Positions 13,685 through 31,032 of a stretch of DNA of 64,000 bases are shown here, piece after piece. Each line of letters starts with the position of its first letter. Position 1 is the first letter of the stretch. A model generated the notes under the pieces. That model was not told the origin of the DNA. It saw only the letters and a program-made list of their open reading frames with translations, and made no database searches. Origin of the DNA: Bacteroidota bacterium (GTDB lineage Bacteria > Bacteroidota > Ignavibacteria > Ignavibacteriales > Melioribacteraceae). Position numbers and translations under genes: made by a program. The stretch is from the NCBI GenBank assembly GCA_018829205.1, contig JAHJUE010000009.1:124001-188000 (forward strand). The letters run 5' to 3'.

Positions 13685-16321
13685 ATGCAGTATTTTTCAA
13701 AAAAAAATAGAATAAAATTTACTGCAGTTAGTTTGTCGCTTTGCGGAATTTTTTTCTTCGGAAACATTATATTCTCACAAAATCTTGAAATTATAGAAAA
13801 AAATTCCTCATCAGTCTTTAAATTGCTGGAATACTGGAGCAGCTCCAGAACTTACCCTAATAAAAACATCCCTTCCGATGTATTAATAAAAGCAAAAGAA
13901 TATTCCAAAATTAATCTGGAAAAGAAATTAAATAAAACAAACGAACCGGATCCATGGAAAGCTATTGGTCCAAACAATATCGGCGGAAGAACTCTTTGTT
14001 TGGCTATTAATCCTCTTAACACCGAAACAATATATGCCGGAAGCGCCGGAGGCGGACTTTGGAGAAGTTATTCGGGCGGTATTGGAGCCGAGGCATGGCA
14101 GTATGTTTCCACTGGATTTCCTGTTACGTCCGTCAGCGCTATAGCAATTGATCCGGTTGATACAAATAGAATTTATATAGGCACAGGTGAAGTCTATAAT
14201 TTTAAACAAACAGGAACCGGATTTGCAGATAAACTTACAACCGGAAGTTACGGCATCGGGATTATAAAAACATCCGACGGCGGTATAACCTGGGAACAAA
14301 GTTTAAACTGGAGCGATAGCCTGCAGGTAGGAATTAATGATATCAAAATTGATGTTTATAACAGAAATATAATTTGGGCCGCAACTACTGAAGGCACGTA
14401 TAAAAACTTATTTTACGGCGACCGTAATTTTTGGTACCGTGTTCATGATGTTAAAATGGCAACTGATATTGTTATCAGTCCCACAAATCCCAACAGGGTA
14501 TTTGTAGCCTGCGGAAATTTAGGCAGTGATAAAAACGGATTATATAAAACTGATAACGGCGGGAATGCATGGACAAACATGTACGTCTTTCCTCCCACTT
14601 CTTCGGTCTTCCTTAACGGCAAATCCAAAATTGATGTGTCGCAGTCCGAACCCAATATTTTATTTGCCACTTCAGGGTACGGCGATTATTCTAAAAATTT
14701 AAATACCGCAACCTGGTCTTACAAAACGGATAACAACGGAACATTCTGGATACCTACTCCAAGTCCTTTTATTAATTGGGCATCTTATAATGGATGGTAT
14801 TCTCACGATATAGCAATCAATCCTAAAAATGCAAAAGAGATAATTGCGGGAGGTTTATATCTTTGGAAATCTTCCGACGGCGGATCAACATTTAAACAAA
14901 TTTCCAACGGGAATATTTATTCAGGTTTTATTGAACCGGGGCAGCCTGAGGGGGACGACAAATACGTTCATCAAAATTTACATGGAATTGTTTATCACCC
15001 GACAAATACAAATGTAATATATTTTGCTACCGACGGAGGCATTTTCCGAACAACCGACGGGGGAGAGTCTTTTGAGTCCTGCAACGGCGGGTACCAGACA
15101 AGTAATTTTTACGGGGGTTTTTCAATTTCGCAGCAGGATAAAAATTTTATAATAGGTGGCGCACAAGGTAACGGTACAAATATTTATTCCGGATCAAATA
15201 CATGGCGCAAGTATGTATTGCCTTTCGACGGCGGAATCACCGGAATTAATTCTTTGGACGATAATGTAGTTTATGCTTCCTATCAGGGTTTAAATGTATT
15301 TAAATCCAAAGATAAAGGAACTTCATTCGGGCATTTAACAATTCCCGGGGCCGGTTCCGAAACAGCTTATATTGCGCCGTTTGCACTTGGAAATAAAGAT
15401 CCCGATATAATTTATGCCGGAAGAGAAAAAATTTATAAATCGTTTGACGCAGGACTTACCTGGTTTGAATACAACAAAGGTGGAGTTCTTGACGGAAACC
15501 CGATTGTAAAAATCACCGTTGCACCTCAAAGTGATGATGTAGTTTTCGCGGCTACATTTCCTTTCGAACAAAAAGAAGCCGGCGTTAAAGCGGGACTTTT
15601 CAGATCTATTAACGGAGGCGATACCTGGACTGATATTACAAACGGTCTGCCTGATAGATTTATCGGATGTATATTTATTGACAACAAAAGTTATGTTTAC
15701 GTAACGCTTCTGGGATTCGGAACTTCTCATTTGTATATTTCTGAAGACCTCGGCCAGAATTGGGAAAATATTGGTTCCGGCTTGCCTGATGTTCCGGCCT
15801 CGGCTGTTATAGTTGATCCTGAAAATCCAACGCACATTTATTTGGGTAATGATCTTGGTGTATATTTATCTACCAATAACGGAACTTCATGGGAAAGTTT
15901 TTCACTTGGACTGCCGGATGCCGTTATTATTTCCGATTTAAAAATATTAAGATCCGACAGACTGCTCAGGGCGTCAACCAACGGAGCCGGATTTTTTGAA
16001 AGAAAACTTGTTACCGAAGAGCCAACAGTTATAAAAGAAGAAATAATAAATGCCGGGTATGAACTTTATCAAAATTATCCTAATCCATTTAATCCGCTTA
16101 CAAAAATAAAGTTTACGGTTCCGGATAATAACCAGCTATCGGTAAAATTAAAAGTGTATGACATTCTCGGAAATGAAATAAAAACATTATTAAATAAAAT
16201 TAAATCTCCGGGAACTTATGAAATTGAGTTTGACGGATCCGGCCTTTCAAGCGGAGTTTATTATTATAAACTTATAATTGGAAATTATTCGGTCACAAAA
16301 AAAATGCTTCTGTTAAAATGA
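13685..16321 (+). CDS. Secreted sortilin/BNR-like beta-propeller protein with type IX sorting domain
   Basis: An 878-residue surface or secreted protein. The N-terminal hydrophobic stretch (about 14-31) is a signal peptide. The body is made of propeller repeats with Asp-box-like motifs such as TSDGGITW, TDNGGNAW, SSDGGSTF, TTDGGESF and SINGGDTW, often followed by IYxGt strings, as in VPS10/sortilin and glycosidase-like propellers. The C-terminal 80 residues are a type IX domain (NYPNPFNPLTKI ... SSGVYYYKL ... KKMLLLK). No catalytic domain was seen, so binding or structural roles are likeliest. Start context is weak (no clear Shine-Dalgarno). Confidence 0.85.
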   Translation: MQYFSKKNRIKFTAVSLSLCGIFFFGNIIFSQNLEIIEKNSSSVFKLLEYWSSSRTYPNKNIPSDVLIKAKEYSKINLEKKLNKTNEPDPWKAIGPNNIGGRTLCLAINPLNTETIYAGSAGGGLWRSYSGGIGAEAWQYVSTGFPVTSVSAIAIDPVDTNRIYIGTGEVYNFKQTGTGFADKLTTGSYGIGIIKTSDGGITWEQSLNWSDSLQVGINDIKIDVYNRNIIWAATTEGTYKNLFYGDRNFWYRVHDVKMATDIVISPTNPNRVFVACGNLGSDKNGLYKTDNGGNAWTNMYVFPPTSSVFLNGKSKIDVSQSEPNILFATSGYGDYSKNLNTATWSYKTDNNGTFWIPTPSPFINWASYNGWYSHDIAINPKNAKEIIAGGLYLWKSSDGGSTFKQISNGNIYSGFIEPGQPEGDDKYVHQNLHGIVYHPTNTNVIYFATDGGIFRTTDGGESFESCNGGYQTSNFYGGFSISQQDKNFIIGGAQGNGTNIYSGSNTWRKYVLPFDGGITGINSLDDNVVYASYQGLNVFKSKDKGTSFGHLTIPGAGSETAYIAPFALGNKDPDIIYAGREKIYKSFDAGLTWFEYNKGGVLDGNPIVKITVAPQSDDVVFAATFPFEQKEAGVKAGLFRSINGGDTWTDITNGLPDRFIGCIFIDNKSYVYVTLLGFGTSHLYISEDLGQNWENIGSGLPDVPASAVIVDPENPTHIYLGNDLGVYLSTNNGTSWESFSLGLPDAVIISDLKILRSDRLLRASTNGAGFFERKLVTEEPTVIKEEIINAGYELYQNYPNPFNPLTKIKFTVPDNNQLSVKLKVYDILGNEIKTLLNKIKSPGTYEIEFDGSGLSSGVYYYKLIIGNYSVTKKMLLLK

Positions 16322-16393
16322 TTTTATTGCAATTGCCGGAAAAGTTTTTATTATTGAAACATTCCCGAATAATATATTTTATATTTCAAGTTA

Positions 16394-17692
16394 ATGGCAA
16401 ATAATAAGACTAACAAAATGCAGATTAACCTTAACTTAAACGTTAGGGGAATCCCTCAATCAGCGACTTTAAGAATCAATGAACAGTCGGAAGAATTAAA
16501 AAAACAAGGCCGTCAAATATATAAACTGGGACTTGGTCAATCGCCGTTTCCCGTTCCTGAACCGGTTGTAGAAGAACTAAGAGCGAACGCATATCAAAAA
16601 GACTACCTGCCTGTAAAAGGACTTAAAAGACTAAGAGAAGCAATCGCCGATTATCATCAGCGCAGGCAGGGTGTTAGTTATAGCTGGGAAGATGTATTAA
16701 TAGGACCGGGCTCAAAAGAGCTTATGTTTCTTCTGCAGTTTGTGTATTACGGCGATTTGGTAATACCTACGCCAAGCTGGGTATCATACGCTCCCCAGGC
16801 GCATATAATAGGAAGGCATGTAAGATGGCTTTCTACGCAAGTTGAAAACAACTGGAAACTTACTCCGTCAGAACTTTACAATATTTGCAAAGAAGATCCT
16901 GAACGACCTAGAATTGTTATACTTAATTATCCTTCCAATCCAAGCGGATGCACATATATAGTCGACGAGCTTAAAGAACTTGCCAAGGTCGCGAGAAAAT
17001 ATCAGGTGATTTTATTATCCGATGAAATATACGGCGAACTTCATCATCGGGGGCAGCATGTATCAATATCACGATTCTATCCGGAAGGGACAATAATATC
17101 GGGCGGTTTAAGTAAATGGTGCGGTGCCGGAGGGTGGAGGCTTGGCGCGTTTATATTTCCAAACTCCCTGAGATGGCTATTGGATTCAATGTCTTCAGTC
17201 GCGAGTGAAACATTTACATCCACAAGCGCGCCTATTCAATACGCTGCCGTAAGAGCATTTAAAGGCGGTATTGAAATTGAAAGATACCTTTGGCAGTCCA
17301 GAAGAATATTAAGAAATTTGGGCAAAGAACTAGCCAATAAATTAACTTCTGCCGGTGTAAAAGTTCCTATGCCGGAAGGGGGTTTTTATCTTTTCCCTGA
17401 TTTTAGTTTTTATAAAGATAAATTGAACGCGAAAGGAATAAAAACCAGCAATGAGCTTTGTTCAAACCTGCTTAATGAAACGGGAGTAGCAATATTGCCG
17501 GGATCGGATTTCGGCAGACCAGCGGATGAATTAACCGCGCGTTTGGCTTATGTTGATTTTGACGGCGCACGTGCTCTTGCCGCGGCAGAACAAATTCCGT
17601 CCGATAAAAATTTAAATGGCCAGTTTCTTGAAACTTCATGCGGAAGACTGCTTGAAGCAGTAAATAAAATCTGCGATTGGCTTAATGATTAA
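16394..17692 (+). CDS. Class I/II pyridoxal-phosphate aminotransferase
   Basis: A 432-residue fold-type I aminotransferase. The motifs are NYPSNPSG (about 178-185), SDEIYGEL (about 209-216) and the PLP-lysine region SGGLSKWCGAGGWRLG with Lys241. It resembles aspartate/tyrosine-type aminotransferases, but the exact amino donor cannot be read from sequence. A second in-frame ATG eight codons in (MQINLNL) is an alternative start. The acetoacetyl-CoA synthetase gene begins 34 bases after its stop, so the two may be co-transcribed. Confidence 0.87.
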   Translation: MANNKTNKMQINLNLNVRGIPQSATLRINEQSEELKKQGRQIYKLGLGQSPFPVPEPVVEELRANAYQKDYLPVKGLKRLREAIADYHQRRQGVSYSWEDVLIGPGSKELMFLLQFVYYGDLVIPTPSWVSYAPQAHIIGRHVRWLSTQVENNWKLTPSELYNICKEDPERPRIVILNYPSNPSGCTYIVDELKELAKVARKYQVILLSDEIYGELHHRGQHVSISRFYPEGTIISGGLSKWCGAGGWRLGAFIFPNSLRWLLDSMSSVASETFTSTSAPIQYAAVRAFKGGIEIERYLWQSRRILRNLGKELANKLTSAGVKVPMPEGGFYLFPDFSFYKDKLNAKGIKTSNELCSNLLNETGVAILPGSDFGRPADELTARLAYVDFDGARALAAAEQIPSDKNLNGQFLETSCGRLLEAVNKICDWLND

Positions 17693-17726
17693 TTCATCTG
17701 ATTTTAATACATAAGAAAATTTAATT

Positions 17727-19721
17727 ATGCATGAATTACTTTGGACACCCAAAGAAAAATATATTCAATCAACCAATATTTATCATTTCACAAAACTTCT
17801 CTCCGCGAATACCGGAATAACATTTAATGATTATAATGATCTCCATAATTGGTCGGTAAACGATCTGGAAAATTTATGGGAAATTTTTTTGAAATATTCC
17901 GGTATTATTTATAGTGGCGAATATAAAAAGGTTTTATCGTCGTATAAAATGCCGGGGGTTAAATGGTTCGAAGGTATAAAACTAAATTATGCCGAAAATA
18001 TTTTTGAAAAAAACTATAACGGAACAGCCGTTAAATTTTTAACTGAAGGGTATGAACATAATTTTAATTCCGAGTATCAATATGAATATTCGTTTGAAGA
18101 GTTAAAAAATGAAACATTTAAATGTGCCGGTGCATTAATAAATTCAGGGATTAAAAAGGGAGATATTGTTGCTGGATATATTTCCAATGTTCCCGAAGCA
18201 ATTATTGCATGTCTTGCATGCGCTTCAATAGGCGCCGTGTGGAGCAGCGCTTCTCCCGATTTCGGATTAGAGGCCTTAGTTGACAGATTCTCACAAATCA
18301 ATCCGAAAATTGTTTTTGCCAGCAGTAATTATTTATATAATGGTAAAATCCGTTCATCAAAAAAAGTAATTATTGAATTAAAGAAAAAAGTTCCTTCAAT
18401 AAATAAAATAGTTGTTGTGCCTTTTCATTCAGGTGATTTATATAAATCGGATACAGATATAGTCTGGGAAGAGTTTTTATCCAAAAATGTAGTTGAAAAG
18501 AATAATTACGAAATGAGAGACTTTAACGATCCTTTGTTTATTATGTTTTCATCCGGTACAACCGGGGTTCCAAAATGTATTTTGCATAGTCTCGGCGGTA
18601 CTCTTTTGCAGCATAAAAAAGAACATCTGCTTCATTGTGATATTAAACAAGGTGACAGATTATTATATTTTACAACAACCGGATGGATGATGTGGAATTG
18701 GCAATTATCAGCTCTGGCTTCAGGGGCGGCTATTTATTTGTATGAAGGCAGTCCCGCATATCCTAATTTACAATCAATTTGGGAAAAGGTAGATGCAAAC
18801 AATATTACGCATTTCGGAACAAGCGGAAGATATATTGAAACATGTATGAAAAGTGAAATAAAGGACCATAGTTTCGGCGGACTCGAGTTCAATAATCTCC
18901 GATCTGTTTTCTATACCGGCTCACCTTTATCGGCTGAAGGATATAAATGGATTTATTCTGAAATAAAAAAAGATTTACACTTTGCGGGTATTAGCGGAGG
19001 AACTGATATTATATCATGTTTTGTGCTCGGCAATCCCGCGCTGCCTGTTTATGCCGGCAAAATTCAATGTAAAGGATTAGGTATTGATGCTGCCGCTTTT
19101 GACGAAGACGGAAATGAAATAATAAATAAACCCGGCGAATTAATATGCAGGAAACCGGTTCCTTCAATGCCGATAGGATTTTTGAACGATTCAAACGGTA
19201 AAAAATATTTGGATTCTTATTTCGCAGGTTATCCCGGAGTTTGGACTCACGGTGATTATATTGAATTTGACAAAAACGGGAATTCCGTTATTTACGGAAG
19301 AAGCGATGCAACATTAAATCCGGGGGGAGTTAGAATAGGCTGCGCTGAAATTTATTCGGCTCTTGATGAATTGTTGTACATTAAAGGCGCCGCCGCAGTT
19401 GGCTGGAATCCTCCCGGTCAATTGGATGAAATTATTATTTTATTTGTCGTCCTTAATGATAATCTTATACTTGAGGATAAATTTAGTGAAGAAATTAAAA
19501 AAGTAATTCAAAAGAAAAGATCTTCCCGGCATGTTCCTAAATTTATATTTCAGATATCAAGTCTGCCGGTTACAAGGAGCGGTAAGCCTGTTGAGCTAGG
19601 TATTAAAGCCGTGCTTTCCGGTAAAGAAGTTAAAAATAGAACCGCTCTTGATAATCCCGAAGTATTAAATGAAATAGAGTTATTCGGAAATCAATTATTA
19701 AAATATTATAGTGAATTTTAA
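17727..19721 (+). CDS. aacS: Acetoacetyl-CoA synthetase
   Basis: ATP-dependent ligase that activates acetoacetate to acetoacetyl-CoA, used in ketone-body or polyhydroxybutyrate turnover. The 664-residue length and N-terminal LLWTPKEKYIQSTNIYHF match AacS rather than acetyl-CoA synthetase. Adenylate-forming motifs are SSGTTGVPK (275-283), TTTGWMMWNWQ, and the C-terminal TRSGKPVE, whose Lys would be the catalytic and acetylation-regulated residue. The gene is probably transcribed with the upstream aminotransferase. Nothing looks truncated. Confidence 0.92.
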   Translation: MHELLWTPKEKYIQSTNIYHFTKLLSANTGITFNDYNDLHNWSVNDLENLWEIFLKYSGIIYSGEYKKVLSSYKMPGVKWFEGIKLNYAENIFEKNYNGTAVKFLTEGYEHNFNSEYQYEYSFEELKNETFKCAGALINSGIKKGDIVAGYISNVPEAIIACLACASIGAVWSSASPDFGLEALVDRFSQINPKIVFASSNYLYNGKIRSSKKVIIELKKKVPSINKIVVVPFHSGDLYKSDTDIVWEEFLSKNVVEKNNYEMRDFNDPLFIMFSSGTTGVPKCILHSLGGTLLQHKKEHLLHCDIKQGDRLLYFTTTGWMMWNWQLSALASGAAIYLYEGSPAYPNLQSIWEKVDANNITHFGTSGRYIETCMKSEIKDHSFGGLEFNNLRSVFYTGSPLSAEGYKWIYSEIKKDLHFAGISGGTDIISCFVLGNPALPVYAGKIQCKGLGIDAAAFDEDGNEIINKPGELICRKPVPSMPIGFLNDSNGKKYLDSYFAGYPGVWTHGDYIEFDKNGNSVIYGRSDATLNPGGVRIGCAEIYSALDELLYIKGAAAVGWNPPGQLDEIIILFVVLNDNLILEDKFSEEIKKVIQKKRSSRHVPKFIFQISSLPVTRSGKPVELGIKAVLSGKEVKNRTALDNPEVLNEIELFGNQLLKYYSEF

Positions 19722-19845
19722 ATCTTCTTTATTGAGCTTTTTAAATATTCGAATTATAATAATAACGCAAATAATTTTTTTAAGAAAGGATTAACATAAA
19801 AATAAATTGCTATCTTAATTTGAGTTATTTATTGAGGTATATTAA

Positions 19846-20898
19846 ATGAAGTGGGCTAACAGCAGAATTGAAATAATCTTCTTATTGATAGTAATTTTTT
19901 ATTTATGTTACCTGCTTTCGTCAATTCTTATTCCACTGGTTTTTGCTTTTTTATTCGCGGCATTATTTCAGCCGATGATAATCTCACTTAGAAAAAAGAA
20001 AATCCACAATTGGATTATTTTCCCCGCGATTGCGTTTATCTCCCTCAGTTTAATATTCGGAATAATATTGATTTTTTCTACTACTATTTCGGAATTCATT
20101 AACCAAAAGGATTATCTGCTTTCTAGTTTGGGACATAGATTCAAACCGCTTTTCCTTTGGTTTAATGAAATGTCAAAGACGTACTTAAATTCTGAAATAA
20201 ATATTGACGAAGCGATCAGTACCATACTTACAAGCGGTTTCCTTTCAAAAACAATCGGCTCAATTTTTAATATATTGGGAAACTTTACATCTTCATTCCT
20301 AGTATTTGCATTTTATTACGTAGCTTTTTTAGCGAGCATGCCTTCTTATAAAAAGTTTCTCAAATATGTAAGCGGAAAAGATAATTCTGAAAAAATAATT
20401 TCCGGATATGAAAAAATACTTAAATCAATTTATACCTACGTAAAACTGAAAATAATTATCAGTCTGGTTACAGCAATTTTTATGTACATAACTCTAATTA
20501 TATTCGGAGTTAAATTTTCTTTCATATGGGCGTTTTTAGCCTTCCTTTTAAACTTCATTCCAATTTTAGGTTCTTTACTTGCGGTAATACTGCCGGCGTT
20601 AATGGGAATTATTCAATTCGATACATTTTCCACGGCGCTTTTATTATTGATTATTCTTGTATCGGGACAGATGATTTTAGGAAATTTTGTTGAACCCGTA
20701 TTAATGGGAAGCGGACTAAGCCTAAATACTGTTACAACAATGTTTGGGCTTGTATTTTGGGGATTCTTATGGGGCGCTGCCGGAATGCTGCTTTCGGTTC
20801 CCCTTATAGTTATGTTTAAATTATTAATTGAACAAATTCCTGAATTAAGCGCCATTGGCCGCTTATTAGGCACACCCGGCAAAGAGTTTCAGGAATAG
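19846..20898 (+). CDS. AI-2E family (PerM/YdiK-like) membrane transporter
   Basis: A 350-residue inner-membrane protein with about eight hydrophobic segments. Family features are the N-terminal ILIPLVFAFLFAALFQP, the long central amphipathic region, FLLNFIPILGSLLAVILP near residue 240, and GFLWGAAGMLLSVPL near the end. Members include the autoinducer-2 exporter TqsA and Na+(Li+)/H+ antiporters, so the substrate is unknown. It has its own upstream gap of 124 bases, with an ATG after TATTGAGGTATATTAA. The next 272 bases lack a gene and contain a long-range inverted repeat. Confidence 0.85.
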   Translation: MKWANSRIEIIFLLIVIFYLCYLLSSILIPLVFAFLFAALFQPMIISLRKKKIHNWIIFPAIAFISLSLIFGIILIFSTTISEFINQKDYLLSSLGHRFKPLFLWFNEMSKTYLNSEINIDEAISTILTSGFLSKTIGSIFNILGNFTSSFLVFAFYYVAFLASMPSYKKFLKYVSGKDNSEKIISGYEKILKSIYTYVKLKIIISLVTAIFMYITLIIFGVKFSFIWAFLAFLLNFIPILGSLLAVILPALMGIIQFDTFSTALLLLIILVSGQMILGNFVEPVLMGSGLSLNTVTTMFGLVFWGFLWGAAGMLLSVPLIVMFKLLIEQIPELSAIGRLLGTPGKEFQE

Positions 20899-20918
20899 TT
20901 GATAAATTATAAATTAAT

Positions 20919-21026
20919 TTATAAGGACATTTATTAATTATTATTGAATTATAATTAAAAATCAGAAACTTATATTCGATAATAGTTTATTCCTTGTTAA
21001 AGCCATAACTGAAATTGTCCTTATAA
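20919..21026. repeat. 11-bp inverted repeat with an 86-bp spacer
   Basis: TTATAAGGACA (20919-20929) and its perfect complement TGTCCTTATAA (21016-21026) lie in the gap between the AI-2E gene and the first TonB-dependent receptor. Either a looped hairpin near the 3' end or two operator half-sites is possible. Nothing else was recognised in 20899-21170. Confidence 0.4.
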
Positions 21027-21170
21027 TTGGATAGAAGCAACTTAATTAAAAACAAAATTGATTATTGTAATAATTAAAAATCCGAAAAGATAAATGGCTA
21101 ATTATTTGTATTTATAATAACCGGCGGCAATTAATTCGATTAAACTATTATCAACCAAGAGGCAAACAAG

Positions 21171-23396
21171 ATGAGGTTGCAGTTTGATAGTTTTGTTAAA
21201 ATTTTAGTTTTGTTTATTTATTTGCAAATTGTAGTTAATGCGCAGGATACAACAAATACCTCTCAGCTATTTGACCTTTCTATTGAAGAACTTTTAAACC
21301 TAAAAGTCGTAACATCGGCAAAAACCGAGCAAAAAGCTAAAGAAGCTTCAGCTATGGTAATTGTAATTACAAAACAAATGATAAAGGAAAGAGGTTACTC
21401 CGATCTATTTGATGCTCTGAACAGCCTTCCTTATTTCCAGATACAGTCTGAACACGGGCATTGGACTAAAGGAGGAATAGTTAATTTAAGGGGATTACGA
21501 AGCGGCGATTCGGGAAACAATAAAGTGCTTCTTTTAGTTGACGGAATAAAAATAAGCGATGATGCCGAAGAAGGATTATACATGGGATTAAACAGTATTC
21601 CTCTTAGCGGTATTAAACAAATTGAAGTGGTATACGGACCTAATTCCACTTTATACGGCAGAGACGCTTACGCGGGCATGATTAATTTAATTACAATTGA
21701 CGAAAATGAAAGTTATGCCGGCTACAGTTACGGATCGTTTAACACTCAAAAATATTATGCGGGAATATTTCATAATTTCACCGAAGATATAAGCGGCAGT
21801 ATTAATTTGTTCTCATATAAAAGCGAAGAACAGGATCCTACAGGTCAATCCATTTCGTACATTAATCGTCATAAATTTCCCAAACCCCCTTATACTGGAA
21901 TTTTTTACAGAGCTTCTGATAATAAAACCGTAAATCTTGGGCTGGATATTTACGGTCTGTCTCTTAAATATATTTTATATGATATTGTAGGGAGTGAATC
22001 ATACGGCAGTAATCCCGACCTATACGCTGCTGAATATTCAACTTTAACTGCTCAAAAAAATCAGGCCATGCATGCCGATTATAAAATGAATTTATCAAGC
22101 GATATTCAAGCCGAATTTTCATACGTGTATAAAGTAAATGAGTTTAATCCGAAGACGGCTAATTTGTACCTGGATGATCTTGATAGAACCGGAACAACAA
22201 ACGGATCAGGCGAAAACGGTATATCGGCATTTCTGTTTCCGGATACCAGTATTACGGTAGATCCGTTATATGCCTACGGCGGAAGGAAATATTACTATTT
22301 CAGAACCCGCGCTCATAAACTGGGCTTCAAAACTGCGTATAACATTTCCGATAAACTAAAAAATATTTCCGGTATTGATTATAACTATGTAATGGGAATT
22401 CCTGTTATCAGCGAAGGTAAAGGAGGCAAACCTATAACCACCGACGCACAGCGGGAAAAGCTCGAACACGATTTTTCTACAGCCGGATTTTATACCGAGT
22501 TTTCTTATAATATCAATCCAGGATTGCTGGTAACAGCCGGGGGCAGATTTGACATTAACAGCATGTATGAAAATACTTTTATGCCGCGTTTTGCACTCAT
22601 TCATAATTTTGATAATAATATTGTTAAAATAATTTATTCAAAAGGTTATCTAGCTCCAAGCATTACTCAAGCTTATTTTGAAAGTATTACCAATTTTTCA
22701 TGGATTAGAAAAAACGAAAACTTAAAACCGGAAAATAATTATTCGCTTGAAATGGATTGGACATACTTTAAAGAAAATTTACAGATAAGCACAAATCTTT
22801 TTTATAATGATCTTTCAAATTCCATAATTGAAAGCATTACTACAGGCGATTCCGTAATTACATACATAGGAAAAGATTCCTTTTATGTCCCTATACTTCA
22901 AAGTGAAAATATAAGCAACGGTTACAGGTACGGTCTTAATATATCTTTTCTAAATGAAATAAATAATTATATAAAATTCGGATTCAATTATTCGCTGTTA
23001 TTGGGCAGCGATAAAGTCCACAACATTGAAACAACTATAAACGACAACCTTATATCAAATCACAAAGTAAATTTTAACATACTATTAACTCTGGAAAATT
23101 TTCAATTATATACTGAAGCAATTTGGTCGGGGAAAAAAAGAATAAAGTCATATCATGACTTAACGCCTTATTCTACTTTGCTTGATGAAAACGGGTATCT
23201 GAATTTTGATCCTATTTTTCTTCTAAATATTAATTTACGAGCAAACAATATATATAAAGGAATTTCAATTTATCTTAATATTAAAAACCTTTTGGACAAA
23301 GAGTATTACGGACAAACTATAAATGCGCAATGGGGAAGCCCAATGGTACTGCAGGACAAAAGAAGAATTAATTTCGGTCTTGAGTATGATTTTTAA
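21171..23396 (+). CDS. TonB-dependent outer-membrane receptor (signalling locus)
   Basis: A 741-residue outer-membrane receptor for energised uptake. Signal peptide about 1-24 (ending VVNAQ). A plug domain spans about 45-165, with LLLVDGIKI, IEVVYGPNSTLYGRDAYAGMINLIT, and then a 22-strand-type barrel ending in aromatic YDF. It lacks the CarboxypepD_reg N-domain that the second receptor of the locus has. The ATG at 21171 follows AGAGG. The YfiR-family gene starts 21 bases downstream, suggesting that this receptor feeds signal or ligand to the YfiR-kinase pair. The substrate cannot be read. Confidence 0.9.
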   Translation: MRLQFDSFVKILVLFIYLQIVVNAQDTTNTSQLFDLSIEELLNLKVVTSAKTEQKAKEASAMVIVITKQMIKERGYSDLFDALNSLPYFQIQSEHGHWTKGGIVNLRGLRSGDSGNNKVLLLVDGIKISDDAEEGLYMGLNSIPLSGIKQIEVVYGPNSTLYGRDAYAGMINLITIDENESYAGYSYGSFNTQKYYAGIFHNFTEDISGSINLFSYKSEEQDPTGQSISYINRHKFPKPPYTGIFYRASDNKTVNLGLDIYGLSLKYILYDIVGSESYGSNPDLYAAEYSTLTAQKNQAMHADYKMNLSSDIQAEFSYVYKVNEFNPKTANLYLDDLDRTGTTNGSGENGISAFLFPDTSITVDPLYAYGGRKYYYFRTRAHKLGFKTAYNISDKLKNISGIDYNYVMGIPVISEGKGGKPITTDAQREKLEHDFSTAGFYTEFSYNINPGLLVTAGGRFDINSMYENTFMPRFALIHNFDNNIVKIIYSKGYLAPSITQAYFESITNFSWIRKNENLKPENNYSLEMDWTYFKENLQISTNLFYNDLSNSIIESITTGDSVITYIGKDSFYVPILQSENISNGYRYGLNISFLNEINNYIKFGFNYSLLLGSDKVHNIETTINDNLISNHKVNFNILLTLENFQLYTEAIWSGKKRIKSYHDLTPYSTLLDENGYLNFDPIFLLNINLRANNIYKGISIYLNIKNLLDKEYYGQTINAQWGSPMVLQDKRRINFGLEYDF

Positions 23397-23417
23397 TAAA
23401 CTAATCCAAATTTTCAG

Positions 23418-23966
23418 ATGACATTAATTAAAAAAATAATTAATTCGATTCTTATAATAATTATTCTCCTTGCAAATGTTAATTTTTCAGGACAGCCGGA
23501 TGAATACGTTATTAAAGGCGTTCTGCTGGAGAAAATTTCAACATTCATTCAATGGCCTGAAAATGATAAGGATAAAATTAAGGATAATGAATTTGTTGTT
23601 GGGATTATCGGAAAACATAAGTTCGCAGGCATACTTAAAAAATTATATTCAAAGCGTAAAATTCTTAACAAAGAATTAGTCGTAAAAAATATTTCCTCCA
23701 ATTCGGAAATTAATAAGTGCAGCGTTATATTTATTCCGAAACTTAATGATGATGAACTTAATGAAATTTTAGAGTTTGTAAATAAAAAACCAATACTTAC
23801 TATTTCCGATACTGAAGGTTATGCTGAAAAAGGGGTTCATGTTAATTTTTATACCGAAGGGAGCAATATCAGATTCGAAATAAACGAACGTTCCGTAAAA
23901 GAATCAGGTATTCTTATGAATCATCTTCTGCTATCTTTGGCAAAACTTGTAGAGAATGAAAAATGA
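23418..23966 (+). CDS. YfiR-family (DUF4154) periplasmic protein
   Basis: A 182-residue periplasmic protein of the YfiR/DUF4154 family, which in Pseudomonas represses the diguanylate cyclase YfiN. A signal peptide (about 1-25) precedes the family start YVIKGVLLEKISTFIQWP; FVVGIIGKHKF, CSVIFIP and GVHVNFYTEGSNIRFEIN also fit. Only one cysteine (Cys101) is present, so the intramolecular disulphides of Pseudomonas YfiR are absent. Its last codons overlap the histidine kinase gene (ATGA), so the two are translationally coupled. The inferred role is a periplasmic ligand-sensing inhibitor of that kinase. Confidence 0.88.
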   Translation: MTLIKKIINSILIIIILLANVNFSGQPDEYVIKGVLLEKISTFIQWPENDKDKIKDNEFVVGIIGKHKFAGILKKLYSKRKILNKELVVKNISSNSEINKCSVIFIPKLNDDELNEILEFVNKKPILTISDTEGYAEKGVHVNFYTEGSNIRFEINERSVKESGILMNHLLLSLAKLVENEK

Positions 23967-25816
23967 AACCAGTTTTATTTATAAAGAATTTATCAATCAA
24001 AAATAAACTCACGTCTATTATCCTGTTGGTTGTTATTGTTGCTATGTTTTTTGTAATGGCTTTTTCATTAATCGAAAAAATGAATAACGCGAAAACTAAT
24101 TTGGTTAATAATACGATACTTAACGGTAATATTGTAGGAGAATATTGTTTAACAGCATTGTATTTCCAGCGTGCCGATGCTGCTGATGACGCATTAATGA
24201 AACTCGAATCAGTGCCCTATATTCTTAACGCAAAAGTTTATGATGCCGATAAAGTTATTTTTTCTGAATATAACAGAGAAAAATTTAACGAGGATTTTTT
24301 AAAAAAATATTCAGGGAAAGACAAAAACAGCTATTTTGAAGAGGATTATCTTGTTGTTTCTGTTCCGTTGATATATAACGGTGAAAAACTTGGCATTCTG
24401 TTTTTAAGATCCTCTTTGGAATCACTTAATAAAGAGATAAACGAATTTATATTATTCATTTTTATACTCTTTATAATAATTATGATACTTTCATATTTTA
24501 TCGCATTAAAATTGCAGAAGGTTGTTTCGGATCCCATACAGCATCTGGCTGAAGTGACTAAAGAAATTACAAAAAGCAAGAATTTTAATGTGCGAGTTCA
24601 AAAGCAGGCTAAAGACGAAATAGGAAGTTTATACGATGAATTTAATTTCATGCTCGAAAGAATTCAGATTAGTTCGGTTGAGCGAGATGAAGCTCTTCAT
24701 ACATTGGGAATAAGCGAGGAAAGATTAAATCTTGCTCTTGAAGGATCAAACGACGGATTGTGGGATTGGGATTTAAGTACCAACAATGTTTATTTCAGTC
24801 CGCGTTATGAAATTATGCTTGAATACAACCCGGGCGAGCTTTCAGGCAGAATTGAAACTTGGATTGATCTTGTAGTAAAGGAAGATATTGACGACGTTTT
24901 AAAATTAGTAAACGATCATTTAAAAGGAATAAGCTCTCAGTATAAATCTGAATTCAGGATAAAAACAAAAAACGGAAATATTAAGTGGATACTTGACAGA
25001 GGTAAAGTAGTTAAATGGGATGAGACAGGAAATCCATTAAGAATGGTAGGGACTCATACTGATATAACAGAAATGAAAAAATCCGAAGAAGAACTTTTGA
25101 ATGCAAAAAACAAAGCGGAGAAATCGGATAAATTCAAATCTGAATTTCTTGCTCAAATGTCGCATGAAATTAGATCTCCGATTAACGTTATTCTCAATTT
25201 TACTTCGCTGCTTAAAGATGAATTGAAAAATAAAATTGAAGATGATTTGGCTCAGAGCTTCGATTATATTGACAGCGGCGGAAGAAGAATTATCAGAACC
25301 ATTGATATGATATTAAATATGTCCGAGATTCAAACCGGGATAGTTGAATTAAATCCTCAGCCGCATAATATTACAGAAGAAATATTAAACGGTCTTGTAA
25401 AAGAATATAAAACTCAGGCGCGAATTAAAGGACTTGAACTTACGCTAAACTCGTTTCATGTTGATAATCATAAAATATGGATTGATGAATATTCGGTCAG
25501 TCAGATATTCTCCAATTTAATTGATAACGCAATTAAGTATACGCACAGCGGTAAAATTGAGATTACAGTTTATTCAAACAGCAGCGGGGTAACAGTTGAT
25601 GTTATAGATACCGGAATCGGAATTTCGAAAGAATACCTCCCAAATTTATTTGACGCTTTTACACAGGAAGAAGGAGGCTACGGCAGAAAGTTCGAAGGCA
25701 ACGGGCTTGGCCTTGCCCTTGTAAAAAAATATTGTGAACTGAATAACGCCGAAATATTTGTCGACAGTACAAAAGGTAAAGGCACCAAGTTTACGGTTAA
25801 ATTTAATTCCAACTAA
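23963..25816 (+). CDS. Membrane sensor histidine kinase with CHASE8-like sensor, HAMP and PAS
   Basis: A 617-residue hybrid-free sensor kinase. Transmembrane helix 1 is at about 15-37. The periplasmic region 38-160 resembles CHASE8 (ALYFQRADAADDAL, ILNAKVYDADK), the sensor type of YfiN. Transmembrane helix 2 is at about 160-182, HAMP at 183-235 and PAS/PAC at 250-372. HisKA carries phosphoacceptor His401 (QMSHEIRSPINV), and the ATPase shows N-box Asn518/Asn522, DTGIG (549-553) and GNGLGLAL. There is no receiver domain and no response-regulator gene in the window. It overlaps the YfiR gene by four bases, so kinase output appears to replace the diguanylate cyclase of YfiBNR. Confidence 0.9.
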   Translation: MKPVLFIKNLSIKNKLTSIILLVVIVAMFFVMAFSLIEKMNNAKTNLVNNTILNGNIVGEYCLTALYFQRADAADDALMKLESVPYILNAKVYDADKVIFSEYNREKFNEDFLKKYSGKDKNSYFEEDYLVVSVPLIYNGEKLGILFLRSSLESLNKEINEFILFIFILFIIIMILSYFIALKLQKVVSDPIQHLAEVTKEITKSKNFNVRVQKQAKDEIGSLYDEFNFMLERIQISSVERDEALHTLGISEERLNLALEGSNDGLWDWDLSTNNVYFSPRYEIMLEYNPGELSGRIETWIDLVVKEDIDDVLKLVNDHLKGISSQYKSEFRIKTKNGNIKWILDRGKVVKWDETGNPLRMVGTHTDITEMKKSEEELLNAKNKAEKSDKFKSEFLAQMSHEIRSPINVILNFTSLLKDELKNKIEDDLAQSFDYIDSGGRRIIRTIDMILNMSEIQTGIVELNPQPHNITEEILNGLVKEYKTQARIKGLELTLNSFHVDNHKIWIDEYSVSQIFSNLIDNAIKYTHSGKIEITVYSNSSGVTVDVIDTGIGISKEYLPNLFDAFTQEEGGYGRKFEGNGLGLALVKKYCELNNAEIFVDSTKGKGTKFTVKFNSN

Positions 25817-25957
25817 AAATCATCCCTTAAAAAATTACATTAATTAATAACGGCTAATATTATTATTTGATTTTCTATATACTTTAATTTTATTAGTTTG
25901 TGAATATTATTATCACAATTACTAATCCTCTATTAATTCATAAACTAAATATAACAG

Positions 25958-27631
25958 ATGAAAACAGGACTAATATTAATTGCTCTTTTTATCGGACAGG
26001 TTTGTTATGCGCAGGTTGAAAACGTTCCGCTTAATCACCAGATTTATGATTACTTGAAAGAAATGAAGGTAAAGCATGTAATTGGTTCCACGCATGACGA
26101 CAGTCCAAATCTTTCGCGTCTTGAAGTCCAAAACTTTTTAATAGAAATCAGAAAAGAAATTAAAATTCTAAGCGCCACCGAAAAAAATCTATTAATAAAA
26201 TATGAAGCAGAATTCTTTGAAGATGAAATAACCGAAGACAAACACTGGCAAATGTTGAATTATAAGGACGGCTTTTGGGATAATCTAGGTAAATTCGATA
26301 AGGACAAAATTAAATATCTTTATGCCTATAAGGATGAAAATGTAAAAGCCTATTTTGAGGGAACAGCTCATTTTATTTTTGGACAGCAATACAAACCCCA
26401 AAAAACAAATTCCGAACTATATGATATTGGATTCAGATTTAGAGGAACTCTTTTAGAAAAATTCGGATTTTATTTCTCTTTAGAAAAAGGCGGAATCTCA
26501 GGAAGCAAAAATTTTGCTTCTATTGTCGAACCCAGGCTGAACACCAATTTTAAATTTATTGAAGATATGGAAAACGTAGCTAATTACGATTATGTAAACG
26601 GTTATGTTAATTATTATTCACAGCCGGTAAAGAACATGCATGTATCGCTGCAATTCGGAAGGGAACAGTTAAAATTCGGATACGGATACGGAAGTAAATT
26701 TGTTATATCCGGCGATAACCCGAATATGGATTTTCTAAAATTTAATTTCAGATACGGATTTGTTGATTATACAACAATCCATGCCTCAACGGTTGGGGAG
26801 TTTAATTTTGACCGCTCCCAAAACTTCACAAAATATATCGCGTTGAACAAGTTCGGATTTTTAGTAAACGATAAATTAAGACTTGGTATTGGTAATTCAA
26901 TTGTATATTCCGGAAGAGGTTTGGATTTTGCTTATTTAAATCCGTTTACATTTTATAAGTTCGTTGAAATGTCGATACAGGATAGGGACAACGGAACAGT
27001 TTTTTTCGATATTCAATCGAATCATATAAAAAACCTTGAACTCCAGGCCTCGTTTTTTATGGATGAAAATTTCTTAAATAAACTGGGTGAGATGTCCAGA
27101 TTTTCAAACAAAACCGCTTATCAGTTGGGAGCCTTTTGGTATGAACCCTTTTCAATCCCGGATGTTTCATTAATTTTTGAGTACACAAAAATCCGGCCTT
27201 ATACCTATTCACACATCAGCGGGAATGATTCTTATACTTCCTTCGGCACAAATCTGGGACATAGAATCGGACCTAACTCCGATGAAATATTAACAAAACT
27301 TTCGTATAATCTCTGTGAAAATATAAGATTCAACGCCGAATATTCTTTTGTAAGATCGGGTGAAAATATTCTAAGTCCAGAAGGAATAATTATTAAAAAT
27401 GTTGGCGGAGATGTATTTGAGCCGCATATTGAATTACGAGATTCCGAAGAAGCAGTTTTTCTCGATGGTATTAGAATTAATTCCAATATATTGCTGCTGA
27501 ATCTTAGATTTGAACCAATACGCGACTTAAGTTTTGATATTTATTATAAATATATTTTTGAAGAAAATATCACACATAATTTCAAAAATGATTTAAATTA
27601 TGGTTACATAAAAATGACCGCAGAGTTTTAA
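25958..27631 (+). CDS. Outer-membrane beta-barrel protein, Wzi/capsule-assembly-like
   Basis: A 557-residue exported protein (signal peptide about 1-18, ending CYAQ) with alternating strand patterns typical of an outer-membrane barrel and a terminal TAEF aromatic residue. Segments such as FGREQLKFGYGYGSKFVISG, YSGRGLDFAYLNPFTFYKFVE and FDIQSNHIKNLELQASFF resemble the Wzi capsule-assembly family. No capsule genes are present here, so the function may be a general porin or surface-glycan role. Its TAA overlaps the ATG of the lipoprotein gene by one base, which ties it to the downstream receptor module. Confidence 0.7.
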   Translation: MKTGLILIALFIGQVCYAQVENVPLNHQIYDYLKEMKVKHVIGSTHDDSPNLSRLEVQNFLIEIRKEIKILSATEKNLLIKYEAEFFEDEITEDKHWQMLNYKDGFWDNLGKFDKDKIKYLYAYKDENVKAYFEGTAHFIFGQQYKPQKTNSELYDIGFRFRGTLLEKFGFYFSLEKGGISGSKNFASIVEPRLNTNFKFIEDMENVANYDYVNGYVNYYSQPVKNMHVSLQFGREQLKFGYGYGSKFVISGDNPNMDFLKFNFRYGFVDYTTIHASTVGEFNFDRSQNFTKYIALNKFGFLVNDKLRLGIGNSIVYSGRGLDFAYLNPFTFYKFVEMSIQDRDNGTVFFDIQSNHIKNLELQASFFMDENFLNKLGEMSRFSNKTAYQLGAFWYEPFSIPDVSLIFEYTKIRPYTYSHISGNDSYTSFGTNLGHRIGPNSDEILTKLSYNLCENIRFNAEYSFVRSGENILSPEGIIIKNVGGDVFEPHIELRDSEEAVFLDGIRINSNILLLNLRFEPIRDLSFDIYYKYIFEENITHNFKNDLNYGYIKMTAEF

Positions 27632-28185
27632 TGATAAATATATATATGAATAGAAAATTCAATAAACTTATAAAAATATTTTTAATCTTAATCATACCTT
27701 TTTTGTATTCATGTGATAAAGGTATTGAACCGTACCCGGTAGAGACAGGTCCGGACATTACAAGCTTTGAAGGAAAAGTAACCTTTGTCGGCGCCTGGCC
27801 CGAAGGAATAAACAGAACATACATCGTAGTTTTCTCAGAACCTTCCCGTTTCGATGTTAATACTCTGCAATATATTATCGGGCCTATTCCTTACGGCGTA
27901 TCTGAATTTAATTACAACTCGATTGAAAATAATTTAGGTCTTATTCCCAAACTTGCGGCCGGTGAATATCCATATGTAATTGTTGCGCAATCTAAAACTC
28001 CCGAATTATCGTTACTGAGGCAGGATTGGACTGTAGCCGGAATTTATTTTAACCAGGGAAATACAGCCTTGCCGGGTATATTAAAAATTGAGCAAGGAAA
28101 AGTTGTTTCAGGCATAAACATAACGTGTGATTTTAATAACCCTCCGGTTCAGCCTCCATCAAGATGGAAAATGAATTATGAATAA
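27631..28185 (+). CDS. Lipoprotein of a TonB-dependent receptor pair, unknown function
   Basis: A 184-residue protein with an N-terminal hydrophobic stretch ending in LYSC, a lipobox. The mature part begins DKGIEPYPVE and has beta-rich segments (FEGKVTFVGAWPEG, TYIVVFSEP, GILKIEQGKVVSGINI). The first ATG overlaps the upstream stop; a second ATG five codons later (MNRKFNK) is a plausible alternative. The end overlaps the start of the TonB-dependent receptor by eight bases, so the two are translated together. It may be a surface partner of that receptor; no known domain was recognised. Confidence 0.75.
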   Translation: MINIYMNRKFNKLIKIFLILIIPFLYSCDKGIEPYPVETGPDITSFEGKVTFVGAWPEGINRTYIVVFSEPSRFDVNTLQYIIGPIPYGVSEFNYNSIENNLGLIPKLAAGEYPYVIVAQSKTPELSLLRQDWTVAGIYFNQGNTALPGILKIEQGKVVSGINITCDFNNPPVQPPSRWKMNYE

Positions 28186-30364
28186 TATTATGAAATATAT
28201 ATTCTTTGCCGCGATTATTTTATTATCGTATAATTTTTTATCGGCGCAGAATAAAAATATAACGGGATTTATATTTGATAAAGATAATCAGCCTCTTAAC
28301 GGAGCTAATGTAATTATATCGGGAACAAATTTCGGCGCGGCTTCCGATATAAACGGATATTTTGAAATTAAAAATATTCCTTTCGGTATTTATGATCTCG
28401 AAATTTCTGTAATCGGATTTAAAAAAGAAAAAATCAGAAATATCAAATTTTACGAACTGTTCGAACCGTTAAGAATTACTCTTCGACCTGAATCGGTGGA
28501 GACAGATCAGATAATCGTATCAGCGGGAAAATATGAACAAAGAATCAGCGATATTACCGTTAGCTCTGTAGTTATTGGCCCGGAAATATTTTCAAAGAAA
28601 AATATCGTTCAGCTTGACGAGGCTCTTCGTTATGTGCCCGGAGTAAGCGTTGCGCTTGAACAGGTAAGTATAAGAGGATCAAGCGGATACAGCAAAGGCG
28701 CCGGTACGCGAGTGTTTGTAGCTGTTGACGGTATTCCGATTTACACGGGCGATACAGGCGAGATTGTATGGGAAATGGTTCCTATTACCGATGTTGAAAG
28801 AATTGAAATTATTAAAGGTCCGGCTAGCTCACTTTACGGTTCGACTGCCATAGGAGGAGTAATAAATATTATAACTAAAAAAGCCGCGAGTGAACCCGTT
28901 ACATATATAAAAACATTTGCCGGCGTTTATGATGATCCTTCATATGATGAATGGAAATGGAATAAATCAAAAAGAACATTTTTCGGCGTGGAAGCTGTTC
29001 ATTCCTCCAGATTAAATAATCTTGGTTATACTTTTTCGATAAAAAGATTCGATAATGACAGTTACCGTGAAAATGATTTTAAGAAAAGACTCTCGGGGTA
29101 TTTAAAGCTGGATTACGATATAGATGTTAATAAGTCAATTACATTTATCGGCAATTATTTAGATATGAACCGCGGCAATTTTATTTACTGGAAAGATTCG
29201 AGAAATGCATTAATTCCAAAGGACAGCGACCGTGATCAAACCGTAAAATCAGACAGGCAATTTGCTTCATTAATCTACAAACAGAAATTTTCGGATACGT
29301 TCTCGGGAGAATTTAAATCAAGTTATTACCGCTCCAATTTTGAAGGAATTGGAATTGAATTAACAACCGCTACAAGCAATCTTTTTAGAAATGAATTAAT
29401 AACGACATCAAAGATTAACGATAAATTTGTAATTGTATCCGGCGTAGAAGTATCTTATGCCGACGTAAAATCAAATTTATTTTCAAGTCCGTATTTCCTA
29501 AGCGCTTCAGCTTACGTACATTCGGAATATAAATTCTCAGATAAAATTAATTCAACGTTAGGGTTACGGTACGATTTTATTAAACTGGATACATTAGCTG
29601 GTGCGAATGCTCTAACTCCCAGAGCGGGATTAAATTACAAATATTCCGATGAACTTATTTTCAGAACATCTTTTGCTACCGGATTCCGGGCTCCGACACC
29701 TGCGGAAGTTTTTACTTCTGCCGACGCCGGAAGCGGAATAATGGTAGTTGAAAATCCAAACCTTGATTATGAAACAAGTTTGTCTTTTGAAATAGGCGCT
29801 ATTTATCAGCCCATAAATTTCATCAAATTTGACGCGGCTTTTTTTAATACCGATTATAATAATTTTATTGAACCTCTTTTAACCAGTGAAGGTAATATTC
29901 AATTTGTAAATCTGCCCAAGGCAAGAATTCAAGGCGTTGATTTCACAACTGATTTAATACTGATTCCCGGGCTTCTAAATTTTTCCGTCGGTTATAATTA
30001 TTTATGGGCCAGAGATATTAACAATAATAAGGCGATGAAATATCGACCGCGAAATACAGTCTATTCAAGCCTTGAATTTACTCCTTATTCTTTTGAATTT
30101 AGGACCGATTTAAGATACTGGTCAAAAGTGGAAGAAATAGATTTTAATTTAACAAAACCGCCTATAAATTTAATTGCCGACGGTGAAAACCGTGCTGAAG
30201 TAATAGTAGTTGATTTAAGTATTGGTTACAATTTTGTTATTGGCGCAAGTCCATTTAAAATCTATCTGAACGGTAAGAATATTTTTAATTATAATTATGT
30301 TGAATTTATCGGAAATCTCTCACCTATAAGAAATTTTTCTCTAAGTTTAGAAACTTATTTTTAG
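28178..30364 (+). CDS. TonB-dependent receptor with carboxypeptidase-like regulatory N-domain
   Basis: A 728-residue outer-membrane receptor. After a signal peptide (to about residue 24, SAQN) comes a CarboxypepD_reg-like beta-sandwich (about 27-105: GFIFDKDNQPLNGANVIISG). A plug follows with QLDEALRYVPGVSV, VSIRGSS and IEIIKGPASSLYGSTAIGGVINIIT, then a barrel ending in LETYF. The N-domain is typical of receptors in Bacteroidota. A second in-frame ATG (MKYIFF) could be the true start. It is the last gene of the envelope locus; the substrate is unknown and no cobalamin riboswitch was seen upstream. Confidence 0.9.
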   Translation: MNNIMKYIFFAAIILLSYNFLSAQNKNITGFIFDKDNQPLNGANVIISGTNFGAASDINGYFEIKNIPFGIYDLEISVIGFKKEKIRNIKFYELFEPLRITLRPESVETDQIIVSAGKYEQRISDITVSSVVIGPEIFSKKNIVQLDEALRYVPGVSVALEQVSIRGSSGYSKGAGTRVFVAVDGIPIYTGDTGEIVWEMVPITDVERIEIIKGPASSLYGSTAIGGVINIITKKAASEPVTYIKTFAGVYDDPSYDEWKWNKSKRTFFGVEAVHSSRLNNLGYTFSIKRFDNDSYRENDFKKRLSGYLKLDYDIDVNKSITFIGNYLDMNRGNFIYWKDSRNALIPKDSDRDQTVKSDRQFASLIYKQKFSDTFSGEFKSSYYRSNFEGIGIELTTATSNLFRNELITTSKINDKFVIVSGVEVSYADVKSNLFSSPYFLSASAYVHSEYKFSDKINSTLGLRYDFIKLDTLAGANALTPRAGLNYKYSDELIFRTSFATGFRAPTPAEVFTSADAGSGIMVVENPNLDYETSLSFEIGAIYQPINFIKFDAAFFNTDYNNFIEPLLTSEGNIQFVNLPKARIQGVDFTTDLILIPGLLNFSVGYNYLWARDINNNKAMKYRPRNTVYSSLEFTPYSFEFRTDLRYWSKVEEIDFNLTKPPINLIADGENRAEVIVVDLSIGYNFVIGASPFKIYLNGKNIFNYNYVEFIGNLSPIRNFSLSLETYF

Positions 30365-30594
30365 TAAAATATTAAAAAAACTAAAACCACGTTTGAGTAA
30401 AATACCGCAACTCATTTCAGCAAAACAACTTAAACAATAGTTTAATTATGGCTCTTTTTTTTCGATAATACGTTTAAATCTCGCACGCTTTTTGATGCAA
30501 CTATTTATTATTTAATTCGTCAAAATGACATGAGAATTTCTCTGGAAAAGTTTCCTTCAAGGAGTAATAACATATCAAAAAATGGGAGGCAGTA

Positions 30595-31032
30595 ATGCTG
30601 TACAAAAACGTATTAACAATAATTTTTTCATTCTTATTTTTAACTAATATTGCATTTGCAAGCTCTACACCTGCAGATGACGCTGCTGTAAAACAGACTA
30701 TTGAGAAATATGCAAAAAGCACCGACGATAAAGACGGTAGCGGTGTTGAAAGTGTATTTCATAAAGAAGCTATTATTTACTCGGTAAACAAATTCAATAA
30801 TAAAGTTAGTGAAATGTCATTATCCGAATATGTCGGCGAAATTAAAAGCGGTAAATTCGGCGGTTGGGAAAGAGATCTTACTATTGAATCTGTTGATGTT
30901 TACGGAAGCACAGCGGTTGCTAAAGTTATGATGAAAGACGCAAAGTTAAAACAAACTGAATACCTTTCGCTTGTTAAATTAAACGGCGGATGGAAAATCG
31001 TAAGCTGTTCATTAACAAGAGAAAAAGCATAG
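30595..31032 (+). CDS. Exported NTF2-like (SnoaL/DUF4440-type) protein
   Basis: A 145-residue protein with a signal peptide (about 1-22, ending AFAS) and a single cone-shaped alpha+beta domain: ADDAAVKQTIEKYAKSTDD, VESVFHKEAIIYSV, WERDLTIESVDVYGSTAVAKV, LSLVKLNGGWKIVS. This pattern is that of NTF2-like or lumazine-binding-type proteins with unknown ligands. GGGAGG six bases before the ATG gives one of the strongest ribosome sites here. It stands alone, followed after 70 bases by an octamer hairpin element. Confidence 0.8.
   Translation: MLYKNVLTIIFSFLFLTNIAFASSTPADDAAVKQTIEKYAKSTDDKDGSGVESVFHKEAIIYSVNKFNNKVSEMSLSEYVGEIKSGKFGGWERDLTIESVDVYGSTAVAKVMMKDAKLKQTEYLSLVKLNGGWKIVSCSLTREKA

Follow-up and report, generated by a model that had tools for sequence, protein, structure and literature searches.

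In the YfiBNR system of Pseudomonas aeruginosa, for which HmsCDE is given as the counterpart in Yersinia, a YfiR-family periplasmic protein is combined with an inner-membrane sensor of the CHASE8/PAS-HAMP type and with a third layer at the outer membrane, the OmpA/Pal-like lipoprotein YfiB. In signalling of the FecA-FecR-FecI type, a TonB-dependent receptor starts the signal across the envelope through an anti-sigma and a sigma factor. A stretch of 64,000 nucleotides from a genome of the Melioribacteraceae (Bacteroidota), hereafter the window, carries three adjoining genes that recall both, coding for a TonB-dependent receptor (P0001), a YfiR-like protein (P0002) and a membrane sensor histidine kinase with a CHASE8 domain (P0003). 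The three kinds of layer are those of YfiBNR, but the outer-membrane partner is a TonB-dependent receptor instead of YfiB, the CHASE8-HAMP sensor ends in HisKA-HATPase instead of GGDEF, and the YfiR-like protein has one cysteine where YfiR has four conserved ones. As in the FecA type, the envelope signal would originate at a TonB-dependent receptor; unlike FecA, this receptor has no STN domain, and YfiR and the kinase stand in place of the anti-sigma and sigma factors. No YfiB lipoprotein gene was found in the operon, the only place where it was sought; the neighbours there are the TonB-dependent receptor upstream and a Wzi-like gene downstream.

Malone et al. (2012; PMC3375315) described a modular YfiR-YfiN[PAS] core whose output can be of the kinase, HPT, GGDEF-EAL or MCP type, and such cores, like the window, place YfiR beside a CHASE8-type sensor with kinase output, mostly without yfiB; the accessible part of that paper mentions neither a TonB-dependent receptor layer nor fused YfiR-coil-kinases. 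NCBIfam (release 20.0) holds a linked set of models for the same three gene types, NF053590 (TOL_0244), NF053591 (TOL_0243) and NF053592 (HK_near_YfiR_like), named after locus tags of Thalassolituus oleivorans; that TOL_0243 and the kinase adjoin TOL_0244 is taken solely from these names. The window proteins scored below all three cut-offs (78.7 against 645, for the plug part only; 93.8 against 125; 147.7 against 194), with nearly the full length of NF053591 and NF053592 covered by P0002 and the P0003 sensor region. At E 0.001, 20 of the 22 YfiR proteins of our alignment A1 matched NF053591. On the model of sequestering YfiR (NF053586, sequest_YfiR), P0002 reached 38.8 bits, below the cut-off of 85. 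Expression of TOL_0244 was up sevenfold on the n-C28 alkane compared with Tween 80, and the protein is 40.3% similar to OmpS (B5T_01485 of Alcanivorax dieselolei), reportedly an alkane detector that sets off chemotaxis (PMC6304351); the accessible part of that paper does not mention YfiR alongside TOL_0244. In the open-licence literature searched, a scope outside which most subscription papers fall, no description of a receptor-YfiR-kinase mechanism was found. As for the novelty of the arrangement, which the earlier note had left undecided, kinase outputs of YfiR cores were known in 2012 and linked NCBIfam models exist; new here are the recurrence of the receptor-YfiR-CHASE8 chain as a unit across phyla, its fused form and the lead to alkane-sensing receptors.

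The receptor, YfiR and CHASE8-kinase genes form a real, conserved three-gene signalling unit. Its best reading is probably a three-layer envelope relay from receptor to YfiR to CHASE8 kinase to response regulator, as the earlier note had put forward; gene neighbourhood, co-variation of distances and fused forms support the receptor-YfiR-sensor chain as a unit. The outer-membrane receptor would bind an external ligand, and its periplasmic face, comprising the plug and a conserved pre-plug segment, would switch the YfiR-like protein to another state. The target of YfiR would then be the kinase's CHASE8 domain, from which HAMP and PAS would relay the change to the HisKA/HATPase core, and this core would phosphorylate a response regulator encoded elsewhere in the genome. 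By analogy with Pseudomonas, YfiR would most likely restrain the kinase, and the loaded receptor would draw YfiR off. We infer the ligand gating, the physical contacts, the sign of the effect and the target of the relay. The relay is favoured because a receptor precedes YfiR far more often than in the control, because CHASE8 above its cut-off occurs, among the related genomes, only in those with DUF4154, because YfiR and CHASE8 co-vary, because fusions exist and outputs are swapped behind a constant receptor-YfiR pair, and because the YfiR model resembles YfiR chains and TOL_0244 shows n-C28 induction and similarity to OmpS.

The three genes occupy positions 21171-25816, exactly as previously assigned from the open reading frames (ORFs). 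Receptor and YfiR genes are 21 bases apart and YfiR and kinase genes -4, with outside spacings of 272 and 141 bases, and the shared ATGA suggests that translation of YfiR and kinase may be coupled. In Pfam, the receptor matched Plug (2.3e-19) and the barrel family (7.4e-21), the YfiR-like protein matched DUF4154 (PF13689; 109.9 bits against a cut-off of 24.9, 1.5e-31) and the kinase matched CHASE8 (33.1 bits against 27, 7.1e-8), HAMP, PAS_3, HisKA and HATPase_c. The CHASE8 match, residues 45-148, falls inside the region (38-160) that had been ascribed to this domain from the sequence. With a HisKA domain that includes an H-box, HATPase_c and a membrane sensor, P0003 is a two-component sensor kinase, and H401 of the H-box is presumably its phospho-acceptor. 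The source genome comprises 4.59 Mb in 39 contigs, with one DUF4154, two CHASE8 and 39 Plug matches. No known RNA, riboswitches included, scored above its gathering score in 16000-32000, and scans of 20800-28300 returned 33 promoter sites (37.6 in shuffles) and 2 terminators (4.0 in shuffles), without excess.

DUF4154 was present in 20 of 58 related genomes, in 32 of 296 genomes of a phylum sample and in 27 of 185 genomes of a gammaproteobacterial sample that was centred on, and contains, a Hahellaceae genome already known to have it. Loci were fetched for 30 places other than the window in the relatives, 34 new places in the phylum (one place in G065, of the same genus as three others, was omitted) and 42 of the 50 gammaproteobacterial places. 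The ORF filter left 29, 34 and 38 YfiR genes, respectively, and removed five (L059, L181, one of two in L186, L203 and L215). A receptor gene lay directly upstream of YfiR, on the same strand, in 23/29 relatives, 15/34 phylum and 16/38 gammaproteobacterial loci and in the window (1/1), compared with 21 of 1038 other genes counted over all stretches, the window and named loci included. The gene order, which the earlier note expected to recur in related genomes, is thus conserved in the relatives and beyond. Counting receptors up to two genes away on either side, the figures were 25/29, 23/34 and 20/38; a fourth set of named loci, covering partly the same places and kept out of the sums, had the receptor upstream in 10/19. 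Domain labels came from profiles iterated from the window proteins and the fetched loci, and where loci were checked with Pfam, the main architectures agreed, except that CHASE8 was not above threshold in L053 and L055 and was below the cut-off in L042.

The YfiR sequences nearest to that of the window come from L042 and L099, and the arrangement recurs in other genomes of its family. Farther away, a single run in Indioceanicola profundi (Alphaproteobacteria) comprises receptor, YfiR and a CHASE8-HisKA-HATPase-REC protein, with proteins that exceed the cut-offs of NF053590 and NF053591, and Pseudoalteromonas sp. Bsw20308 has receptor and YfiR followed by CHASE8-HAMP-GGDEF-EAL; in Burkholderia arboris (L121), CHASE8-GGDEF was seen and a nearby receptor was not found. 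Among the 58 related genomes, 13 have CHASE8 above its cut-off, and 13/13 also have DUF4154 (Fisher 2.5e-8). Four genomes whose only YfiR is fused (G009, G010, G045, G052) have no CHASE8 above the cut-off. In one place (L038:7164-14772), three receptors come after a pair of YfiR genes, with no kinase within the stretch read.

Neither STN nor CarboxypepD_reg was matched by Pfam in P0001 or in any of the 32 YfiR-linked receptors scanned (0/32). No ligand could be read from the receptor family either, every NCBIfam match of P0001 being far under its cut-off. Ahead of the plug, most YfiR-linked receptors share an N-terminal segment, a candidate for the YfiR contact and the TonB-box region. A regular expression for this segment recovered just 24 of 67 linked receptors; therefore, a profile was used instead. 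Trained on 18 gammaproteobacterial linked receptors only, it gave the window receptor 24.2 bits and at most 6.5 bits to the 12 other receptors of the same genome that could be read (of 38 other Plug places); 48 non-gammaproteobacterial linked receptors, the window's included, had a median of 15.8 bits, with 13 under 6.5. The receptor subfamily scored at least 125 bits in 17/20 genomes with DUF4154 and in 2/38 others (Fisher 8.5e-10), with a profile in which 17 of 20 rows are linked receptors from those same genomes. A subfamily strictly specific to YfiR was rejected, since members without an adjoining YfiR exist.

Co-variation was assessed as correlations of pairwise distances among receptor-YfiR-CHASE8-kinase triads, with 1000 label permutations. 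Over 35 triads, YfiR and CHASE8 correlated at r 0.63, compared with 0.14 between CHASE8 and the kinase domain within the same protein, and the YfiR-CHASE8 value given the kinase domain was 0.62, reached in 0/1000 permutations. Over 34 triads, YfiR and plug correlated at 0.26 given the kinase domain (3/1000), and plug and kinase at 0.04 given YfiR (330/1000). As indirect evidence, these values are consistent with receptor-YfiR-CHASE8 contacts, and they are partly driven by the split between YfiR classes.

Ten loci carry YfiR and kinase as one protein: L044-L051 in the relatives, L103 in the same class and L220 in the Gammaproteobacteria. In these fusions, a hydrophilic stretch and then a single transmembrane helix separate YfiR from the kinase, and CHASE8 is missing; Pfam confirmed DUF4154 and kinase in those scanned (L046, L047, L220), and in a quick tree the ten form one group with support of 93. 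A receptor lies directly upstream in 8/10 and adjoins on the opposite strand in one. Measured between the YfiR match and the onset of the hydrophobic segment, the linker spans 137-147 residues in 10/10, contains 0-7 Pro or Gly and is 45-54% D, E, K, R and Q. Its hydrophobic periodicity at 3.5-3.67 residues exceeds that of shuffles (0/500 as high in nine fusions, 1/500 in one). At a helix rise of 0.15 nm per residue, such a coil would be about 21 nm long, near the typical periplasmic width. We infer that it acts as a ruler that holds YfiR at the outer membrane.

The predicted structure of the window YfiR (AlphaFold 2, 18 rows) had a predicted local distance difference test score (pLDDT) of 90.8, and its PDB matches 1-15 are all YfiR chains, at 17-20% identity. 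Four patch positions of P. aeruginosa YfiR (160, 162, 163 and 183), of which 160, 162 and 183 belong to the hydrophobic patch that binds YfiN, are retained as I151, F153, E154 and L174, a correspondence read from a profile alignment. The sensor model (16 rows, pLDDT 87.4) has two long helices with a small mixed domain in between; it comes closest in the PDB to a modelled WalK bound to YycH, and the matches after that are further structures of sensors and chemoreceptors, including at rank 7 (E 0.002) an orthologue of LapD, whose family binds a periplasmic protein. F68 of the window sensor, in the motif TALYF, would sit about where the YfiR-binding motif AAVVF of YfiN falls (PMC3375315), and the position is Phe in 68/68 YfiR-linked CHASE8 domains. 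The second CHASE8 protein of the genome, encoded upstream of the window (L062:11503-13335), is a HAMP- and MCP-containing chemoreceptor whose CHASE8 is borderline, marginally above the cut-off in one scan and marginally below it in another; as a speculation, it could share the window YfiR.

Behind the persistent receptor-YfiR pair, the output varies among histidine kinase, GGDEF-EAL and HAMP-MCP. A kinase is encoded right after YfiR, or fused to it, in 21/29 relatives, 15/34 phylum and 20/38 gammaproteobacterial loci, and other outputs are GGDEF-EAL in 5/38 Gammaproteobacteria and a HAMP-chemoreceptor in L053. In L100:4128-7365, YfiR, a gene of 305 amino acids (aa) and a HAMP-SpoIIE phosphatase succeed one another, and the latter, two genes past YfiR, is possibly a further output type. 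The window has no receiver domain, in agreement with the earlier note: of the genome's 94 Response_reg matches, none falls in C2:124001-188000 and the nearest is at C2:118902. Among the relatives, a gene with a receiver domain follows at most two or three genes on in 14 of 21 kinase loci, a single-domain REC coming first in nine, and 6/21 have no receiver, as in the window. Gammaproteobacterial kinases carry their own REC in 14/20 loci, and a REC-GGDEF-EAL gene follows in 6/20; neither occurs in 10/15 kinase loci of the phylum set. The clearest locus, L196, reads receptor, YfiR, CHASE8-HK-REC-Hpt and then REC-PAS-GGDEF-EAL. On the target, which the earlier note called open, the relatives give a partial answer: in part of their loci, the genes immediately downstream encode either a CheY-like REC together with a REC-PAS-HK protein or a REC-PAS-GGDEF-EAL protein. 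A candidate sought in the window genome by similarity to the REC of L046 was rejected, as the best match, 42% identical and inside a 227-aa frame at C21, was not convincing.

Several observations weigh against the relay. No receptor lies within two genes of YfiR in 4/29 relatives, 11/34 phylum and 17/38 gammaproteobacterial loci, one more YfiR being at a contig end, and 11 receptors of the same subfamily, in 9 loci, have no YfiR alongside. When CHASE8 is counted at E 0.001, it appears in 20 genomes, 18 with DUF4154 and 2 without. F68 had to be rejected as a marker of YfiR binding, as Phe also occupies this position in 14 of 17 CHASE8 domains called unlinked, at least 4 of which adjoin YfiR genes dropped by the ORF filter. 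A strict chain is also at odds with the correlation of 0.18 between whole receptor and CHASE8 given YfiR (4/1000) in the 35-triad analysis. After removal of the divergent second YfiR class, the 27 main-class triads gave 0.35 for YfiR-CHASE8 (partial 0.35, 0/1000); there, YfiR-barrel (0.46) at least matched YfiR-plug (0.30), and YfiR-plug given the barrel was -0.04. In the 18 non-gammaproteobacterial main-class triads, YfiR-CHASE8 (0.27; partial 0.29, 6/1000) did not exceed CHASE8-kinase (0.30), and YfiR-plug was 0.41.

The main rival of the relay is a transporter with a binding-protein sensor: the receptor would merely import the ligand, and YfiR would bind it in the periplasm and release or activate the kinase, so that receptor-YfiR contact would be unneeded. 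The pocket of Pseudomonas YfiR used by YfiB is reported to accept vitamin B6 and L-Trp as ligands (PMC4887326), PDB ranks 16-22 of the YfiR model are mostly substrate-binding proteins, and the absence of STN from the linked receptors points the same way. A freely reachable ligand, however, does not require the constant coil of about 21 nm in fused YfiR, and the N-terminal segment common to linked receptors, unseen in the 12 other receptors read, also weighs against this rival; we regard it as unlikely, though it deserves weight. Less probable still, and in our view improbable, is mere co-regulation, with YfiR and the kinase sensing an unrelated cue such as envelope state or redox and the receptor a co-transcribed target. 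This would suit the many YfiR genes without a nearby receptor, and Pseudomonas YfiR was proposed to answer periplasmic redox without YfiB (PMC3375315). The window YfiR, however, has a single cysteine, C101, and therefore no disulfide within the protein; moreover, the receptor-YfiR order is retained between phyla and with different outputs, and receptor and YfiR still co-vary after controlling for the kinase domain. That the locus is a degenerate or inactive remnant of a cyclic di-GMP (c-di-GMP) YfiBNR system, as the missing response regulator and the three sub-cut-off NCBIfam scores might hint, is hardly credible against three open ORFs with complete domains and an identical arrangement in other genomes of the family.

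Returning to the relay, we see about an even chance for a wider proposal taken as a whole: that receptor, YfiR and CHASE8 output make up a general, cross-phylum route of outer-membrane signalling with exchangeable outputs (kinase, c-di-GMP enzyme or chemoreceptor), distinct from FecA-FecR and from lipoprotein-driven YfiB; that one branch is a periplasm-spanning YfiR-coil-kinase, of fixed coil length, touching the receptor at the outer membrane; and that alkane receptors of the OmpS type signal likewise. If true, it would show how an outer-membrane receptor without energy source or enzyme governs gene expression or movement with no anti-sigma factor, and would supply a concrete candidate for how receptors of poorly soluble substrates, long-chain alkanes for instance, pass on their signal. 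The fused form would recast the question of protein shuttling in the periplasm as one measurable protein.

Table 1. Features of the receptor-YfiR-kinase locus (window positions; domain limits in residues of the respective protein).
Feature	Position	Strand	Details
TonB-dependent receptor gene, P0001	21171..23396	+	ORF of 741 aa; Plug 56-169, beta-barrel 251-707
Pre-plug N-terminal segment of receptor, residues 32-51, QLFDLSIEELLNLKVVTSAK	21264..21323	+	common to most YfiR-linked receptors
YfiR-like periplasmic protein gene, P0002	23418..23966	+	ORF of 182 aa; DUF4154 at 32-176
ATGA, overlap of YfiR stop and kinase start	23963..23966	+	4 bases
Membrane sensor histidine kinase gene, P0003	23963..25816	+	617 aa; CHASE8 45-148, HAMP 188-235
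Remaining domains of P0003			PAS 276-365, HisKA 392-459, HATPase_c 508-614; without receiver domain
CHASE8 periplasmic sensor with F68 (TALYF)	24095..24406	+	
H401 codon (SHEIRSP), HisKA H-box	25163..25165	+	motif

Downstream of the kinase (25958-30364), the window encodes a capsule protein of the Wzi-like kind, a protein of 184 aa that matched no family and a second TonB-dependent receptor, this one with CarboxypepD_reg, in genes that overlap each other by a few bases. Farther along, a C25-type peptidase (43800-47528) and a YCF48-like repeat protein (48005-50254) each have a type IX secretion sorting tail. At the other end, the final 82 bases of the gene for a 778-aa protein (L062:13747-16083) are window positions 1-82. 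This protein has 4Fe-4S clusters, the C-terminal domain of the iron-only hydrogenase large subunit (3.3e-31) and a chemoreceptor signalling domain (2.2e-50), and from these domains it is possibly a hydrogenase-type sensor for chemotaxis.

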